DNA of 5,367 nucleotides. Source: an uncultured Ruminococcus sp. Its GTDB lineage: Bacteria > Bacillota > Clostridia > Oscillospirales > Acutalibacteraceae. The stretch spans positions 1 to 5,367 of the forward strand of contig CACXHC010000141.1 in assembly GCA_902767285.1 (NCBI GenBank). Reading direction: 5' to 3'. The notes under the pieces were generated by a model. That model did not search any database. It was not told the DNA's origin and saw only the letters and a list, made by a program, of their open reading frames with translations. The position numbers and the translations under genes are program-made. Position 1 is the stretch's first letter; each line of letters begins with the position of its first letter. Below, one piece after another: positions 1 through 5,367 of the stretch.

Positions 1-660
1 TTCTTGACTCAACATGGTTATCACCTCTATCTTTATTTTACCACGTTTGTCAAGCTATGCTTATTTTATTGGATTGCTATAGATTTCGGAAAGATTTACG
101 ATTTTTTACTTGTGGATTCAGATTTTTGTAATAATGCAAGAAAAGCTACTAAAGACAATCGTTCAAAGATTGATCTTATAGAAGAATTGAAGAATTTATC
201 ATACAAAACGTACTGGGATACGATATTTGGAAATGATAGGCTGATAGAGATAAAAACTAATTTCTGGAAAATTCGGGGATATCGTAATGATGTTATGCAT
301 GCACACAATATTAATTACCATACATTTTCAGAAGCAAGAGGATTATTTCAAACTGCTAATGCGTCTTTGGAAGGTGAAATAAAAGATCTTATAGAGTTCC
401 CAGAAAAGCCCAAAGATTCCGAACTTTTTGTCCACTCTTCTTTGGATAGATTACAAAAAATGTTCTTAGATATGGAAGCATTAAATCGTCAGATACAGTC
501 AAATGGAATAATAGAGAAAATTTATCAGAGCCTTGATATGATGCAGAAATTGTCTTCATTATCTATTACTCCCGAAAAAAGAGAATCTGTAGATGCTTTT
601 ATTAAGTTTTTATCTGAGAATGCTCAATCTATTGATAACACAGGTGAAGAAAATGAATAA
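1..660 (+). CDS. HEPN-like domain protein, 5' partial, upstream of hsdR
   Basis: The frame is open from the first base of the window to TAA at 658-660. A TTG at 4-6 could start it, but no ribosome site can be seen and the first in-frame ATG lies far inside (295), so I treat the gene as cut at its 5' end. About 219 residues are visible. The N-terminal part is hydrophobic and aromatic. At 283-300 it encodes RNDVMH, which fits the R-N-x3-H signature of HEPN domains, many of which are metal-independent RNases or toxin/antiviral effectors. The C-terminal third is charged and probably helical. The stop overlaps the hsdR start by 8 nt (ATG at 653), so the two are probably co-transcribed and translationally coupled. 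The gene is AT-rich, unlike hsdR. I infer an accessory defence role beside the restriction system. A non-catalytic HEPN protein is also possible, because only one motif supports the assignment. Confidence 0.6.
   Translation, partial: FLTQHGYHLYLYFTTFVKLCLFYWIAIDFGKIYDFLLVDSDFCNNARKATKDNRSKIDLIEELKNLSYKTYWDTIFGNDRLIEIKTNFWKIRGYRNDVMHAHNINYHTFSEARGLFQTANASLEGEIKDLIEFPEKPKDSELFVHSSLDRLQKMFLDMEALNRQIQSNGIIEKIYQSLDMMQKLSSLSITPEKRESVDAFIKFLSENAQSIDNTGEENE
642..655 (+). promoter_or_regulatory. Ribosome binding site and start of hsdR
   Basis: AGGTGA at 642-647 lies 5 nt before ATG 653-655, inside the last codons of the preceding gene. It fixes the hsdR start. The frame is open back to 593, but those upstream codons read the HEPN gene out of frame and have no comparable site. 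Confidence 0.75.
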
Positions 661-3625
661 CATCCTAACCGAAAAACAATACCAGTCCTTTATCCTCGAT
701 ACCCTCAAAACCGACAACGGCTACGTAGTCCGCAAAGCGAACAGCTTTGACCGCGCTTTCGCCGTTGACCGTGAGCTGCTTTTCAAGTTCCTGACCGATA
801 CCCAGCCCGACACGATGGACGCGCTGCGAAAGATATATAAAGATAAGCTCGAGGATACCGTTGTGTCGTTCCTCAATGCCGAGATGACGAAAAAGCGCGG
901 CAGCCTGCTCTATGTGCTGAAACACGGCGTCGAGATCGGCAGCCGCAAGCTCGATCTTATGTACACAAAACCCGCTACGACGTTCAACAAGCAACTCTGC
1001 GACCTGTACGAGAAAAACATCTTCTCCGTTATGGAGGAAGTCTGGGCGAGCGACAGCGAGCGCGTGGACGTGGTGATATTTCTCAACGGTCTTGCGATAA
1101 TGACGTTTGAGCTGAAATGCAACTTTGCAGGGCAGTCGTACAATGACGCTATGGAGCAGTACCGCAAAGACCGCAGCCCGAAAACGAGACTGTTCCTGTT
1201 CAAGGCGGGCGCGCTCGTCCATTTTGCGATGGATCTCGACGAGGTCTATATGACGACGAAGCTCGACGGCGCGGATACTTATTTTCTGCCGTTCAATATG
1301 GGGCGCGGCGAGGGCGTGAACGCGGGCGTGGGCAACCCGATCTTCGAGGACAAATTCAGCGTTTCGTATATGTGGGAGGATATTCTAAAAAAGGACACCG
1401 TGCTCGACCTCATAAGCAGATTTATCTTTATCGAAACGAAGGAGCAGACGGACGAACTGACGGGTAAAATTTCGGTAAAGGAAAGAGTGATCTTCCCGCG
1501 CTACCATCAGCTCGACGCTATCCGCAGACTGCTCGCGGACATAGTGGAAAACCGCACATCGCAGAATTATCTTATCCAGCACAGCGCAGGCTCTGGCAAG
1601 ACGAATACTATCGCATGGCTCGCTCACCGCCTTTCCTCTCTGCACGACGCCGACAACGATATAATTTTCGACAATGTCATCATCGTCACCGACAGGGTGG
1701 TAGTCGATCGTCAGCTGCAAAAGGCGATAATGGGAATGGAGCACAAGTCGGGGCTTATCAAGGTGATGGACGACAGATGCAATTCCGCAGACCTTGCGCA
1801 GGCTCTTAAAGGCAACACGAAGATAATCGCCACGACGATACAGAAATTCCCGTTCGTTGTTGAGAGCGTTTCAAACCTCAGCACCAAGAAGTTCGCCGTT
1901 ATCATCGACGAAGCGCATTCCTCTACAGCCGGAAAGGATATGGCAGCGGTGACGATGGCTCTCGGTTCCGATAACCGGGAGGACTATTTCGACGAGGAGG
2001 AGAAGATCGCCGCAGAGATACGAAAGCACGGCAAGCAGAGCAACGTGTCGATGTTCGCGTTCACCGCAACGCCGAAAGCCACGACTATACAGCTTTTCGG
2101 TAGACTCAACGCAAAGGGACAGCGCGAGGCGTTCCATATCTATTCGATGAAGCAGGCGATCGAGGAGGGGTTTATTCTCGACGTTTTGCAGAATTTCACC
2201 ACATACGAGACGTTTTACCGCATAAATAAGGAGATCGAGGAAGACCCGATGTGCCAAACGGCAGAGGCAAAGCGGCAGATCGCAAGGTTTATCGAGCTTC
2301 ATGAAACGAATATTTCGCAGCGCATAGAGGTCATCGTCGAGTATTTCAGAACATCTGTTATGCACGAACTTGACGGCACGGCAAAAGCAATGGTCATTAC
2401 GGCTTCACGCCAAGGCGCGGTAAAATACCGTCAAGCACTCGAGGATTACATAAAGAGAAAGGGCTACACCGACATCAAGGCGCTTGTCGCATTTTCGGGA
2501 AAGGTAACGCTCCCCGACGATGACACGGAATACACCGAAGCGTCTATGAACGGCTTTCCGGAAGACCGCCTGACAAAGGAATTTGACAAGCCCGATTATC
2601 AGGTGCTGCTCGTTGCGAATAAGTATCAGACGGGTTTCGACCAGCCGAAGCTCTGCGCCATGTACGTTATGAAAAAGCTGCAGGGCGTGTCCGCCGTGCA
2701 GACGCTGTCAAGGCTCAACAGGATATGTCCGCCGTATGACAAAAAGACGTTTATCCTCGATTTCGTCAATTCCTACGAGGATATTGTAAAGGCTTTTTCG
2801 ACGTACTACACGACGACGCTTTTGTCAAACTCCGTAACGCCCGCTGCCGTGTACGACCTCGAAGCGGAGATAGACGGCTACGCCGTGTTTGACCCATACG
2901 ATATAGACAAGGTCAACGACATAATGTATTCGGGGAAGCTCACCGCCAAGGGCAGACAGACTATCGGAATGTGCTGCAAGCGAGCAGAGAATCTGCTCAA
3001 AAGCTACTCGAACATTCAGCAGCATGAGTTTGTCGCCAAGCTGCGCAGCTTCGTAAGATTTTACGAGTTTTTGATACAGGTCTCCTGCTTTGAGGATACT
3101 GAGCTTCACAAGAAATACAATTTCATCACAGTCTTGCTGCGCTACATCAACATAAGCCAGCCGGGACCGGGCTTTAATCTCGACGGCAAGATCAAGGCGA
3201 CAAATTTCGTTCAGAAGAAGAGCGAAACGCATACAAGCACAAAGGTGCCGTCAAATCCGAATGTCAGGCTGCCAACCGCAGACGCGTTCGGGCTGACTCC
3301 CGCAAAGCAGGAGCGCCTTTCCGAGATAATCGCCGAGATAAACAGCCGCACCGGCAGCAGCTACGATTCGGACGTTGCCGTGAAGGCGATGCTGCAGATC
3401 AGAGATATTCTGATGAAATCCGACAAGCTGAAAAGAAGCGCGAAAAACAACACCGAAAAGGATTTTGAGTTTTCTTATTTTGACGATATAGACGACGCAC
3501 TAATCGAAGGGCTTGAGCAGAATCGGGACTTTTTCACCATGCTTCTTTCCCACGACGATATAAAGCGTGAGGTCATGGGTGTGTTTACGGGGGAGATATA
3601 TAAGAGTCTGAGGAATGCGGAGTGA
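653..3625 (+). CDS. hsdR: Type I restriction endonuclease, R (motor/nuclease) subunit
   Basis: This complete 990-residue protein is close to the usual HsdR length of about 1000. HsdR joins HsdM and HsdS in the R2M2S complex, which translocates unmodified DNA using ATP and cuts it at a distance. The N-terminal PD-(D/E)xK nuclease shows D139, E153 and K155 (FELK). The RecA-like motor follows: Walker A around G313-SGKT with K316, DEAH at 419-422, FTATPK at 470-475, TGFDQP at 660-665 and QTLSRLNR at 683-690. A helical C-terminal region of about 250 residues presumably docks onto the methyltransferase. The QxxxY motif usually found after the nuclease core is imperfect: A166 stands where the glutamine is expected (AMEQY). 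All catalytic motifs are intact, so the gene looks functional. Its partners hsdM and hsdS are not in the window and are probably upstream. Codon use is clearly more GC-rich than in either neighbour. Confidence 0.95.
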   Translation: MNNILTEKQYQSFILDTLKTDNGYVVRKANSFDRAFAVDRELLFKFLTDTQPDTMDALRKIYKDKLEDTVVSFLNAEMTKKRGSLLYVLKHGVEIGSRKLDLMYTKPATTFNKQLCDLYEKNIFSVMEEVWASDSERVDVVIFLNGLAIMTFELKCNFAGQSYNDAMEQYRKDRSPKTRLFLFKAGALVHFAMDLDEVYMTTKLDGADTYFLPFNMGRGEGVNAGVGNPIFEDKFSVSYMWEDILKKDTVLDLISRFIFIETKEQTDELTGKISVKERVIFPRYHQLDAIRRLLADIVENRTSQNYLIQHSAGSGKTNTIAWLAHRLSSLHDADNDIIFDNVIIVTDRVVVDRQLQKAIMGMEHKSGLIKVMDDRCNSADLAQALKGNTKIIATTIQKFPFVVESVSNLSTKKFAVIIDEAHSSTAGKDMAAVTMALGSDNREDYFDEEEKIAAEIRKHGKQSNVSMFAFTATPKATTIQLFGRLNAKGQREAFHIYSMKQAIEEGFILDVLQNFTTYETFYRINKEIEEDPMCQTAEAKRQIARFIELHETNISQRIEVIVEYFRTSVMHELDGTAKAMVITASRQGAVKYRQALEDYIKRKGYTDIKALVAFSGKVTLPDDDTEYTEASMNGFPEDRLTKEFDKPDYQVLLVANKYQTGFDQPKLCAMYVMKKLQGVSAVQTLSRLNRICPPYDKKTFILDFVNSYEDIVKAFSTYYTTTLLSNSVTPAAVYDLEAEIDGYAVFDPYDIDKVNDIMYSGKLTAKGRQTIGMCCKRAENLLKSYSNIQQHEFVAKLRSFVRFYEFLIQVSCFEDTELHKKYNFITVLLRYINISQPGPGFNLDGKIKATNFVQKKSETHTSTKVPSNPNVRLPTADAFGLTPAKQERLSEIIAEINSRTGSSYDSDVAVKAMLQIRDILMKSDKLKRSAKNNTEKDFEFSYFDDIDDALIEGLEQNRDFFTMLLSHDDIKREVMGVFTGEIYKSLRNAE

Positions 3626-3663
3626 ATGAAAATATAAAGAAATATCTTCCAAATCAGCAACAG

Positions 3664-3708
3664 AGTCAATTATCACTCTTTGTCAAAGAGTGATAATTGA
3701 CTTTTCTT
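3664..3708 (+). terminator. Perfect 18-bp inverted repeat with U-tract after hsdR
   Basis: The arms at 3664-3681 and 3685-3702 are exact reverse complements around a 3-nt GTC loop, and TTTTCTT follows. It lies 38 nt after the hsdR stop, so it reads as an intrinsic terminator of the restriction operon, although the stem is AT-rich. The last six bases of its right arm (TTGACT, 3697-3702) are also the -35 box of the next promoter. It could therefore also act as an operator, or insulate the noncoding RNA from read-through. Confidence 0.65.
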
Positions 3709-3725
3709 GACTTTGGTGGTATAAT
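3697..3725 (+). promoter_or_regulatory. Strong extended -10 sigma-70 promoter for the DRT2 noncoding RNA
   Basis: The -35 is TTGACT (3697-3702, five of six consensus bases), followed by a 17-bp spacer and a perfect TATAAT (3720-3725). TG at 3717-3718 makes it an extended -10 (TGGTATAAT). Transcription should begin near 3730-3732, at the foot of the first RNA hairpin. A second TTGACT at 3707-3712 is only 7 bp from the -10, too close to be used with it. Such a strong promoter with no adjacent coding start indicates an abundant RNA. Confidence 0.85.
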
Positions 3726-3729
3726 AAAG

Positions 3730-3756
3730 ATGCTCGATATGTAGGTATCGAGGCAT
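3730..3756 (+). other. 5' hairpin of the noncoding RNA, possible RT roadblock
   Basis: ATGCTCGATA (3730-3739) pairs with TATCGAGGCAT (3746-3756) around a 6-nt loop, giving ten pairs with one bulged G. It sits at the predicted 5' end of the RNA, 3 nt before the ATTG at 3760-3763 where I infer template copying ends. A stable helix there could stop the RT and favour the jump back to the 3' end of the template. That role is inferred. Confidence 0.6.
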
Positions 3757-3764
3757 GGGATTGT

Positions 3765-3770
3765 TGTCAA
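3765..3770 (-). promoter_or_regulatory. -35 half of the junction promoter
   Basis: The minus strand reads a perfect TTGACA here, near the 5' end of the inferred template. On the chromosome no -10 box follows it at a workable distance. In a 141-nt concatemer it falls exactly 17 bp upstream of the extended -10 at 3891-3883 of the next repeat. Confidence 0.7.
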
Positions 3771-3863
3771 TACTTCCAAGCGAATTTCGATGAAGAATTT
3801 CGTCTGGATTGTTGATACGATTGTCGCCACAGCGGCGACGGCTACTGTTGTACACACAATGGT

Positions 3864-3871
3864 ACTCCTTT
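3864..3871 (-). promoter_or_regulatory. Shine-Dalgarno site of the never-ending ORF
   Basis: The minus strand reads AAAGGAGT, a strong anti-16S match. Seven nucleotides separate AAGGAG from the GTG at 3857-3855, which lies in the only frame that stays open through the predicted repeat. Such a site inside a noncoding RNA, on its antisense strand, is otherwise unexplained. Confidence 0.7.
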
Positions 3872-3874
3872 CCC

Positions 3875-3900
3875 TCTCAATTATTATAGCATAATTGAGA
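3875..3900 (+). other. 10-bp hairpin near the 3' end of the template
   Basis: TCTCAATTAT (3875-3884) and ATAATTGAGA (3891-3900) are exact reverse complements around the loop TATAGC. It ends just before the ATTG at 3901-3904 where I infer that reverse transcription starts each round. On the opposite strand the same bases carry the -10 box, so the sequence serves both RNA folding and the later promoter. Confidence 0.6.
3883..3891 (-). promoter_or_regulatory. Extended -10 half of the junction promoter
   Basis: The minus strand reads TGCTATAAT, a perfect extended -10, within the hairpin at 3875-3900. On the chromosome the sequence 16-18 bp upstream (AGTTTT and neighbours) matches a -35 at no more than about one base. 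Only the repeat junction supplies a real -35. Transcription would start near 3876 and give a leader of about 20 nt before the GTG start. Confidence 0.7.
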
Positions 3901-3976
3901 ATTGCAAAACTGGATAGCTGGTAGTTAAATCACACAGTCATTCTTATGATTATTTAATTGCCACGTTAAAACGTAG

Positions 3977-4020
3977 ACCCGTCAGATAGGAACGCTATCC
4001 TCGCTTTCTGACGGGTTTTT
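3977..4020 (+). terminator. Intrinsic terminator / 3' hairpin of the noncoding RNA
   Basis: ACCCGTCAGA (3977-3986) pairs with TCTGACGGGT (4007-4016), and T4016-4020 form the U-tract. An inner hairpin (GATAG/CTATC, 3985-3999) can form on top, in competition with the last pairs of the outer stem. This defines the RNA 3' end near 4020. The RT start lies 20 nt further on, so RT mRNA probably comes from partial read-through, giving much more RNA than RT. Confidence 0.8.
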
Positions 4021-4030
4021 CAAATTTTTT

Positions 4031-4043
4031 GGGGGAATATATG
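4031..4043 (+). promoter_or_regulatory. Ribosome binding site and start of the RT
   Basis: GGGGGA (4031-4036) lies 4 nt before ATG 4041. It is the only purine-rich site near the frame opening and fixes the start. An ATG in another frame at 4045 is not used. Confidence 0.65.
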
Positions 4044-5367
4044 AATGAACTTTCCGAATGGATAAAAGACATAAAGACAATCGAAAAAAGCCGAAAAGAT
4101 TACGCACATTTCGATCTTAGAACAGATTTATCAAGATGCGAGGATTATGTTTTAAATCCACAAAATATAGCAACACACAGCTTTTATCCTTTCATTCACT
4201 ACGAAAAAAAATCAGATAAATATTGTAAAAATAAAGAAAAGAATTCTGCAAAAGAAAAGATACCAAAGGCTCGAGATATTTGCTATGCTTCACACAAAGA
4301 CCGTTGTGTTTTTCAATTATATAGCCATATCCTTAATGATAGATACAATCAAGAGATTAAGTACAGAGGAATAGACAGCGTTCCTGTCGCATACAGAAGT
4401 GATTTACAAATCAACAATATCGGAATTTCAAAAAAGGCATTTGATTATATAAGAGCCTCCTCGCCTTGCTATGTTATAATAGGTGATTTTACCGGATTTT
4501 TTGATAATTTAGATCATGGATATCTAAAATCACGTTGGTGTGATTTATTAGGAGTTGACTCACTACCAAAGGATCATTATACTGTTTTTAAAAACATTAC
4601 TCAATACAGTCAATGGGAGCTTTCGGATATTTGCGAAATTAACCATCTTGAATATAATAAAGCCGGAATTAAAAAACTCAATTCAAAAAGGACTGTGTTA
4701 ACAAAGGAACAATATAAAAAATACAGACCTCACATTACCAAAAATACAAAAGGATATGGTATTCCTCAAGGTTCTCCGATCAGCGCAGTTTTGGCTAATC
4801 TGTATATGATAGATGTTGATACTGAGGTGAACCGTATTATATCTGAAATGAACGGATTATATATGCGCTACAGTGACGATTTTATACTTGTTCTTCCGAA
4901 AAATGATCCGGCTTTCTCGGCAGTTAAAATAAAAACCATTACAGATATTTTTAATGGCACAAAAGGATTACAACTTGAATCAAAAAAAACTCAGTTTTAT
5001 TATTACGAGAACAATACAATATTAAATTGTGGAAAAGCGTTTGATAGTGGTCTTAATGATAGCAAGAAAACAATTGATTTTCTTGGCTTTTCTTTTAACG
5101 GAACAAAAGTTACTATTCGAGCTAAAACTATTTCAAAGTATTATTACCGAATGTATCGAAAAGCAAAGAATATTGCTAAGAACAGCGGATATACATCAAA
5201 AGGAACAAAGATAAGCAAAAGAGGTTTATACAATCTATATTCAATAAAAGGTGCTTATAATAGTAGAGGTAGTAAAGGCAACTTTATAACATATGTTAAC
5301 AGGGCGAAAAAATGTTATGGAAGCAAAGAAGACATAGATATAAGCACTCGAAATCATATGCAGAAAA
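4041..5367 (+). CDS. drt2: DRT2 (UG2-class) antiphage reverse transcriptase, 3' partial
   Basis: The frame opens at ATG 4041, just after GGGGGA (4031-4036), and is still open at the window edge: 442 complete codons and no stop. This is a single-domain palm-type RT. The N-terminal block around residues 21-54 (YAHFD, then FYPFIHY) and YASHKDR near 82 precede the palm. Motif A is GDFTGFFD (148-155, catalytic D149), motif B is YGIPQGSPISAVLANLYM in full (239-256), and the active site is YSDD at 277-280 (D279, D280). DFLGFSF at 346-352 begins the region leading into a lysine- and tyrosine-rich, thumb-like end. It lacks the maturase and endonuclease parts of group II intron RTs, as far as can be seen. 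A dedicated upstream RNA with a concatemer-competent template supports DRT2 over other UG/Abi or retron classes. Its job would be rolling-circle copying of that RNA into repetitive cDNA. The gene is markedly AT-rich. Confidence 0.85.
   Translation, partial: MNELSEWIKDIKTIEKSRKDYAHFDLRTDLSRCEDYVLNPQNIATHSFYPFIHYEKKSDKYCKNKEKNSAKEKIPKARDICYASHKDRCVFQLYSHILNDRYNQEIKYRGIDSVPVAYRSDLQINNIGISKKAFDYIRASSPCYVIIGDFTGFFDNLDHGYLKSRWCDLLGVDSLPKDHYTVFKNITQYSQWELSDICEINHLEYNKAGIKKLNSKRTVLTKEQYKKYRPHITKNTKGYGIPQGSPISAVLANLYMIDVDTEVNRIISEMNGLYMRYSDDFILVLPKNDPAFSAVKIKTITDIFNGTKGLQLESKKTQFYYYENNTILNCGKAFDSGLNDSKKTIDFLGFSFNGTKVTIRAKTISKYYYRMYRKAKNIAKNSGYTSKGTKISKRGLYNLYSIKGAYNSRGSKGNFITYVNRAKKCYGSKEDIDISTRNHMQK

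Follow-up and report, generated by a model that had tools for sequence, protein, structure and literature searches.

The reverse transcriptase (RT) at the 3' end of the window, by which we mean the whole 5,367-nt stretch of DNA analysed here (the entire contig C141 of a 1.93-Mb draft genome), is predicted to copy a 141-nt template (3760-3900) in the RNA encoded at 3731-4022 head-to-tail. The joined copies would form a cryptic neo gene on the opposite strand, the product of which likely stops growth during phage infection. We give this reading, which is drawn from sequence comparison, a probability of about 0.87. The system appears to work like DRT2-neo of Klebsiella pneumoniae, with a DRT2 enzyme as its RT, and would be a variant of that type with a different jump signal. 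The DRT2-neo type is already known from Klebsiella; new here, going by the titles and abstracts searched, is a predicted neo with AUUG in place of ACA. The features referred to below are as follows.

3697-3725, plus strand: likely promoter of the ncRNA (predicted), TTGACT (3697-3702), 17 bp, TATAAT (3720-3725)
3731-4022, plus strand: ncRNA (ends approximate), with 5' handle, template, pseudoknotted scaffold and terminal hairpin
3733-3752, plus strand: 5' handle hairpin
3760-3763, plus strand: AUUG-1, 5' end of the template and predicted departure site of the cDNA end
3760-3900, minus strand: 141-nt repeat template, predicted cDNA unit
3765-3770, minus strand: predicted -35 element of the junction promoter, TTGACA
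3855-3857, minus strand: predicted neo start codon, GTG, in the open frame
3865-3871, minus strand: predicted Shine-Dalgarno sequence of neo, AAAGGAG (sequence match)
3876-3899, plus strand: template hairpin, CTCAATTAT / ATAATTGAG, from the fold of the window RNA
3883-3888, minus strand: predicted -10 element of the junction promoter, TATAAT, with TGC before the hexamer
3901-3904, plus strand: AUUG-2, predicted landing site of the cDNA end
3912-3918, plus strand: pseudoknot strand GGATAGC, pairs with 3994-4000
3977-4016, plus strand: terminal hairpin, ACCCGTCAGA / TCTGACGGGT, followed by a T run
3994-4000, plus strand: pseudoknot strand GCTATCC, pairs with 3912-3918
4041-5366, plus strand: DRT2 reverse transcriptase, truncated by the end of the contig, with 442 codons inside the window

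Reverse transcriptase and neighbouring genes

The RT belongs to the DRT2 family, both by profile and by fold. It matches PADLOC Drt2 with 458.8 bits (E 6.7e-138), and the best other family, Drt3a, reaches 68.9 bits. The closest solved relative by sequence is DRT2 of Klebsiella, PDB 9c0i (E 5.9e-57), which is also the best Foldseek match of the predicted fold (E 1.7e-32, TM 0.75/0.78, 31% identity; pLDDT of the model 83). The initial annotation had named the RT as DRT2, and these searches bear it out. Membership of DRT9 or another DRT family was considered and rejected on PADLOC score and fold: Drt9 scores 68 bits, and the DRT9 fold gives a TM of 0.43 versus 0.75 for DRT2.

Directly 5' of the DRT2 locus the window encodes an HsdR-like type I restriction subunit (656-3625), a setting that resembles a defence island. 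An open-ended ORF in the window is without a match in Pfam or PADLOC. A near-perfect inverted repeat (3662-3704; 20 pairs counted, loop of 3), perhaps a terminator, is located between the HsdR gene and the promoter of the ncRNA. Rfam matches at 3630-3717 (MIR4387, mir-8517, MIR5649, rli52 and NsiR4) were rejected, their scores being below the respective cut-offs; they fall on or beside this inverted repeat, 5' of the ncRNA.

The upstream non-coding RNA

A structured ncRNA with a template and a pseudoknot is located directly upstream of the RT gene, which is a feature of DRT2 systems. The stretch occurs once in the source genome. In a consensus scan its likely promoter agreed at 11 of 12 positions and had a TG ahead of the second hexamer. 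The minimum free energy of the window RNA has a z-score of -7.49 against shuffles, and the structure covaries in 26 relatives: across the 33 named pairs 96.3% of the cells are paired, and 26 of the pairs are changed on both sides versus 15.5 in shuffles. The upstream ncRNA proposed in the initial annotation is thus supported by fold and covariation alike.

The pseudoknot is the most regular element, with 7 pairs, 5 of them changed on both sides, and 100% of cells paired in the 26 relatives. The 5' handle has 8 pairs (7 changed on both sides, 98.1% of cells paired) and the terminal hairpin 9 counted pairs (99.6%). The template hairpin, which holds the -10 element of the junction promoter and ends one base before AUUG-2, is weaker in the alignment, with 85.6% of cells paired.

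The Rfam family RT-6 (RF03027) matches 3731-3804 over its whole model (57.8 bits, gathering cut-off 46.7). It is matched in 16 of the 19 clade loci scanned, the exceptions being L019, L029 and L040. The model, only 75 nt long, spans the 5' handle and the first part of the template; no function is given in the Rfam entry. Whereas the window RNA matches RT-6, both Klebsiella-like controls match RT-12, in their 3' scaffold (L085, 1340-1452; L094, 1325-1454). The two orphan families are parts of DRT2 RNAs: RT-6 is the 5' part in the clade of the window, and RT-12 is the 3' scaffold in Klebsiella-like loci. A literature search on RT-6 and RT-12 RNAs found nothing relevant.

Template ends, predicted junction and open frame in the window

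The direct repeat AUUG at 3760-3763 and 3901-3904 is likely the physical basis of the junction. In an alignment of 26 rows, ATTG is invariant at AUUG-1; at AUUG-2, ATT is invariant and G is found in 24 of 26 rows (A in L037 and L069). Because ATTG is present at both positions, the five joins from 3760/3900 to 3764/3904 give one and the same concatemer. The boundaries 3764/3904 of the initial annotation are therefore one of five equivalent cuts at the AUUG repeat and describe the same predicted concatemer. On the chromosome the order of TTGACA and TATAAT is reversed and 112 bp separate them; the join brings them to a spacing of 17 bp. Downstream of this predicted junction promoter AAAGGAG is followed, after seven bases, by the in-frame GTG.

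The minus frame at 3669-3929 is free of stops over 261 nt (87 codons), as first reported. Joined head-to-tail, the 141 nt of 3764-3904 do give a frame that never closes; this is the case for one minus frame, and the other two contain 1 and 4 stops per repeat. Seen from the window alone the open frame is weak evidence, because the linear frame is open anyway. Dinucleotide shuffling leaves the neo frame open in 16% of cases, and among 806 junction pairs around the template 267 likewise join into an open frame. The reading could not be established from the window by itself; it is the comparison with relatives that decides. The earlier proposal of a Neo-like stop-less protein encoded at this locus is retained here as a prediction, with the geometry shared by relatives, instead of the single open frame, as its evidence.

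The predicted repeat unit in relatives

From an RT profile search we took the best 80 of 207 genome loci, plus 4 viral loci. We ran a rule that predicts the repeat unit on 63 upstream regions, those of the window and of L001-L052, L056, L058, L063, L069, L070 and L088-L092; loci that were more distant in the profile search, and the neighbour set of L007 beyond the best 80, lie outside the count. In brief, the 5' end is set by the motif ATTGTTGTCAA with at most 2 mismatches, and the 3' end by the highest combined score of the -10 element, ATTG, the preceding hairpin and the spacing. The rule is blind to length modulo 3 and to stops. It is a revised version, in which the -10 match is also scored; the first 3'-anchor rule picked later hairpins in L013, L014, L033, L034 and L048.

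The 5' motif was found in 53 of the 63 regions; two of the ten regions without it, L089 and L092, lacked it because they were scored on the wrong strand. In 50 of the 53 motif loci the unit has a length divisible by 3 and is free of stops in one and the same frame. The promoter spacing is 17 bp in 49 of these 50, and ATTG is exact at both ends in 37. Clustering at 80% template identity left 33 clusters. The unit length is a multiple of 3 in 31 of them (binomial P 3.9e-13; cluster P values are optimistic owing to shared ancestry), and 30 of these share the open frame as well. For the 30 passing clusters, dinucleotide shuffling predicts 4.0 open. Of the remaining frames, the two minus ones lack stops in 2 and 0 of the 30 clusters and the three plus ones in 4, 0 and 2. 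A looser clustering at 70% identity gives 24 clusters; in 22 the unit is divisible by 3, and 21 of these are also open. The comparison supports the earlier claim of a coding strand opposite the ncRNA with a 141-nt period.

The three misses among the motif loci are L047, L070 and L090. For L047 the rule misplaces the end, and the locus' own repeat, AAUC, gives a unit of 162 nt that is open and has the 17-bp spacing. L090 was counted as a miss from the opposite strand; the correct strand fails too, and a wider scan gives an open unit of 147 nt. L070 is a real exception: its RT is in the AUUG clade and it has the scaffold and AUUG twice, but the unit is 166 nt with stops in every frame. The template of L095 is identical to that of L070 and fails the rule; these two loci may reflect decay or another product. 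Two passing picks are uncertain. For L030 the rule gives 120 nt, and another scan prefers 180 nt, also open; for L039 it gives 126 nt, and the wider scan 135 nt. In several Bacillota loci the match at the template ends is down to two or three bases.

Further genome searches gave matches in 4 of 391, 4 of 245, 4 of 398, 1 of 20 and 7 of 397 genomes, own and repeated genomes included. Among the loci added later, L089, L093, L099 and L101 pass the rule as new templates, L090 and L096 fail it, and L097, L102 and L103 lack the 5' motif. L092, L098 and L100 pass as well; they and L095 bring no new evidence because their templates are identical to loci already counted (L027, L015 and L017 for the three that pass).

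The wider scan covered 25 distant or doubtful loci and required an exact TTGACA at 17 bp from a TATAAT with 5 or more of its 6 positions matched. In 15 of the 25, the top pick has a length divisible by 3 and is free of stops in one of the frames, which is not always that of the window. Five best picks fail this combination (L053, L054, L070, L096 and L097), and five loci gave no pick (L060, L068, L079, L081 and L086). L053 and L054 have a second pick of 186 nt with TATACT that is open. The viral scan with the RT profile gave 4 distant loci, among them L082 with an open unit of 147 nt.

Some observations on the loci themselves were made in passing. One MAG harbors, besides the intact copy L013, a second copy (L012) that has kept the 3' scaffold and lost the 5' motif. 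In L002, L006, L014, L027 and L037 tRNA genes are found close to the DRT2 locus, as at integration sites. Lactobacillus johnsonii ATCC 33200 (NZ_GG670120.1) carries two DRT2 loci, L036 and L052, approximately 5.7 kb apart; their templates differ, being 183 and 192 nt by the rule.

Predicted Neo reading frame and translation signals

A Shine-Dalgarno sequence with an ATG is found in the neo frame in 11 of the 30 passing clusters, versus none of the 30 out of frame. When GTG and TTG are counted too, the figures are 13 in frame, including the window with its GTG, and 7 out of frame. The neo frame is hydrophobic (mean +0.82), in contrast to the other minus frames (-0.79 and -0.20). The protein sequence is hardly constrained, since a codon-position test on 37 close pairs (250, 243 and 282 differences) gave no third-position excess and no signal of selection. 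Only two columns are invariant in 31 aligned repeats. Wilkinson et al. describe a hydrophobic bias in Neo and note that most of its conserved residues follow from the promoter and ACA elements (PMC12039810). A model of a single repeat gave one helix with a pTM of 0.43, which is too weak to build on.

A sister subclade with short templates

Six loci of Lachnospiraceae type (L043, L044, L046, L051, L056 and L058) encode RTs that are 41-43% identical to that of the window. They have kept a handle-like hairpin, lack the 5' motif and have templates of 47-64 nt between TAT repeats. Of their 7 candidate units, none combines a length divisible by 3 with an open frame, and none of the six loci keeps the triplet rule. 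Not all templates of this RT family therefore follow the rule, and the six loci are a natural negative control. Possibly they represent a branch of DRT2 with a non-coding product.

Comparison with known systems

The window shares with DRT2-neo of Klebsiella pneumoniae the RT family and fold, an upstream ncRNA made up of a 5' hairpin, a template and a pseudoknotted scaffold, TTGACA and TATAAT that are 17 bp apart only after joining, a stop-less frame opposite the ncRNA strand, and a repeat divisible by 3. The two RTs are about 31% identical. In Klebsiella the jump is described to run between ACA-1 and ACA-2 (PMC11100668, PMC12039810). Whereas ACA is found at the template ends there, the window has AUUG at both and no ACA pair at the expected places; because of this difference we regard it as a variant and not as a plain member of the Klebsiella type. 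The predicted GTG start is also unlike Klebsiella DRT2-neo, and the units, 120-192 nt among the 30 passing clusters, compare with 111-129 nt named for Klebsiella relatives. The control L094, with an RT 63% identical to Klebsiella DRT2, gave ACA, a unit of 117 nt, 17 bp and an open frame, which is the published geometry.

In an RT tree of 63 rows the AUUG and ACA kinds are on separate branches. Ten rows group with Klebsiella (support 100/100) and 23 with the window (100/99), the latter group including L070 and four Lactobacillus rows with weaker end matches. The Lactobacillus loci and L101 have kept about two matching end bases. Other end repeats were AAUC in L047 (Selenomonas), UUA in L049 (Butyrivibrio), AGAU in L085 (Photobacterium) and UAUU in L102. 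Such single-locus variants are weak, because a three-base match at one of four offsets is expected by chance about once in 16 (an estimate); the AUUG clade is the solid case among the variant end repeats.

Repeat addition via short homology between two ends of an RNA template is also described for DRT10, which differs in its RT family, its very short non-coding repeats, protein priming and a SLATT partner (PMC12632851). An AUUG signal or a neo in the clade of the window is absent from the titles and abstracts searched; the clade may be among those shown in figure S6 of PMC11100668.

Proposed mechanism and alternative explanations

The conserved structure and the Klebsiella relative suggest that the RNA binds the RT via its pseudoknotted 3' scaffold. 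The RT would then copy the template to AUUG-1, where the DNA end ...CAAT would leave, pair with AUUG-2 and restart, so that each round adds 141 nt; this is what the AUUG repeat and its conservation point to. The joined units place TTGACA 17 bp from TATAAT, which would serve as promoter after the cDNA has become double-stranded. The resulting mRNA would carry the Shine-Dalgarno sequence and the in-frame GTG, both present in the sequence and predicted to be used, and its translation would give an endless 47-residue repeat, hydrophobic and, in a low-confidence model, helical. The phage trigger, the arrest of growth and the defence itself are presumed by analogy with DRT2 of Klebsiella.

It is unlikely, at less than one chance in ten, that concatemeric cDNA is made but acts as DNA or RNA, the open frame being a by-product of base composition and RNA structure. 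The missing codon-position bias, the open frame of the window with its shuffle probability of 0.16 and the non-coding templates of the sister subclade would fit such a product, and DRT9 and DRT10 are described to make non-coding repeats (PMC12632851). Against it stand the 31 of 33 clusters divisible by 3, with 30 open in one fixed frame, the restriction of Shine-Dalgarno plus ATG to that frame (11 versus 0) and the geometry of the promoter. A different junction or mechanism in this clade, with a jump that does not use AUUG and boundaries that are wrong, seems slightly less probable still. Tang et al. describe Neo as harder to annotate in divergent DRT2 clades and leave other mechanisms open (PMC11100668), the expected ACA pair is absent, and in the window the frame would survive many junctions whose length is a multiple of 3. 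However, AUUG is found at both template ends, where the Klebsiella-like control has ACA, and a 17-bp distance from the conserved -35 to the conserved -10 element results from the AUUG junction only. An ordinary antisense open frame, arisen by chance in an AT-rich intergenic region, is compatible with the window taken alone, but the counts across relatives, together with the conservation of the promoter and of the RNA structure, make it highly improbable. A neo gene joined at AUUG is our preferred reading.

With odds somewhat against it, we speculate further that the DRT2 jump signal may be any short direct repeat in register with the split promoter, not ACA as such, and that the enzyme resets by homology alone. 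The sister subclade, without a junction promoter, would then make short non-coding repeats, and gene-making and non-coding repeats would be two outputs of one enzyme family.

Significance

The rule finds a predicted neo in a distant, mostly Bacillota clade of DRT2 and names its predicted jump signal, and thereby provides some 30 clusters of new predicted Neo repeats. The orphan RT-6 RNA gains a likely role. With the two AUUG repeats as predicted signal, template jumping should be easily testable in the clade of the window.
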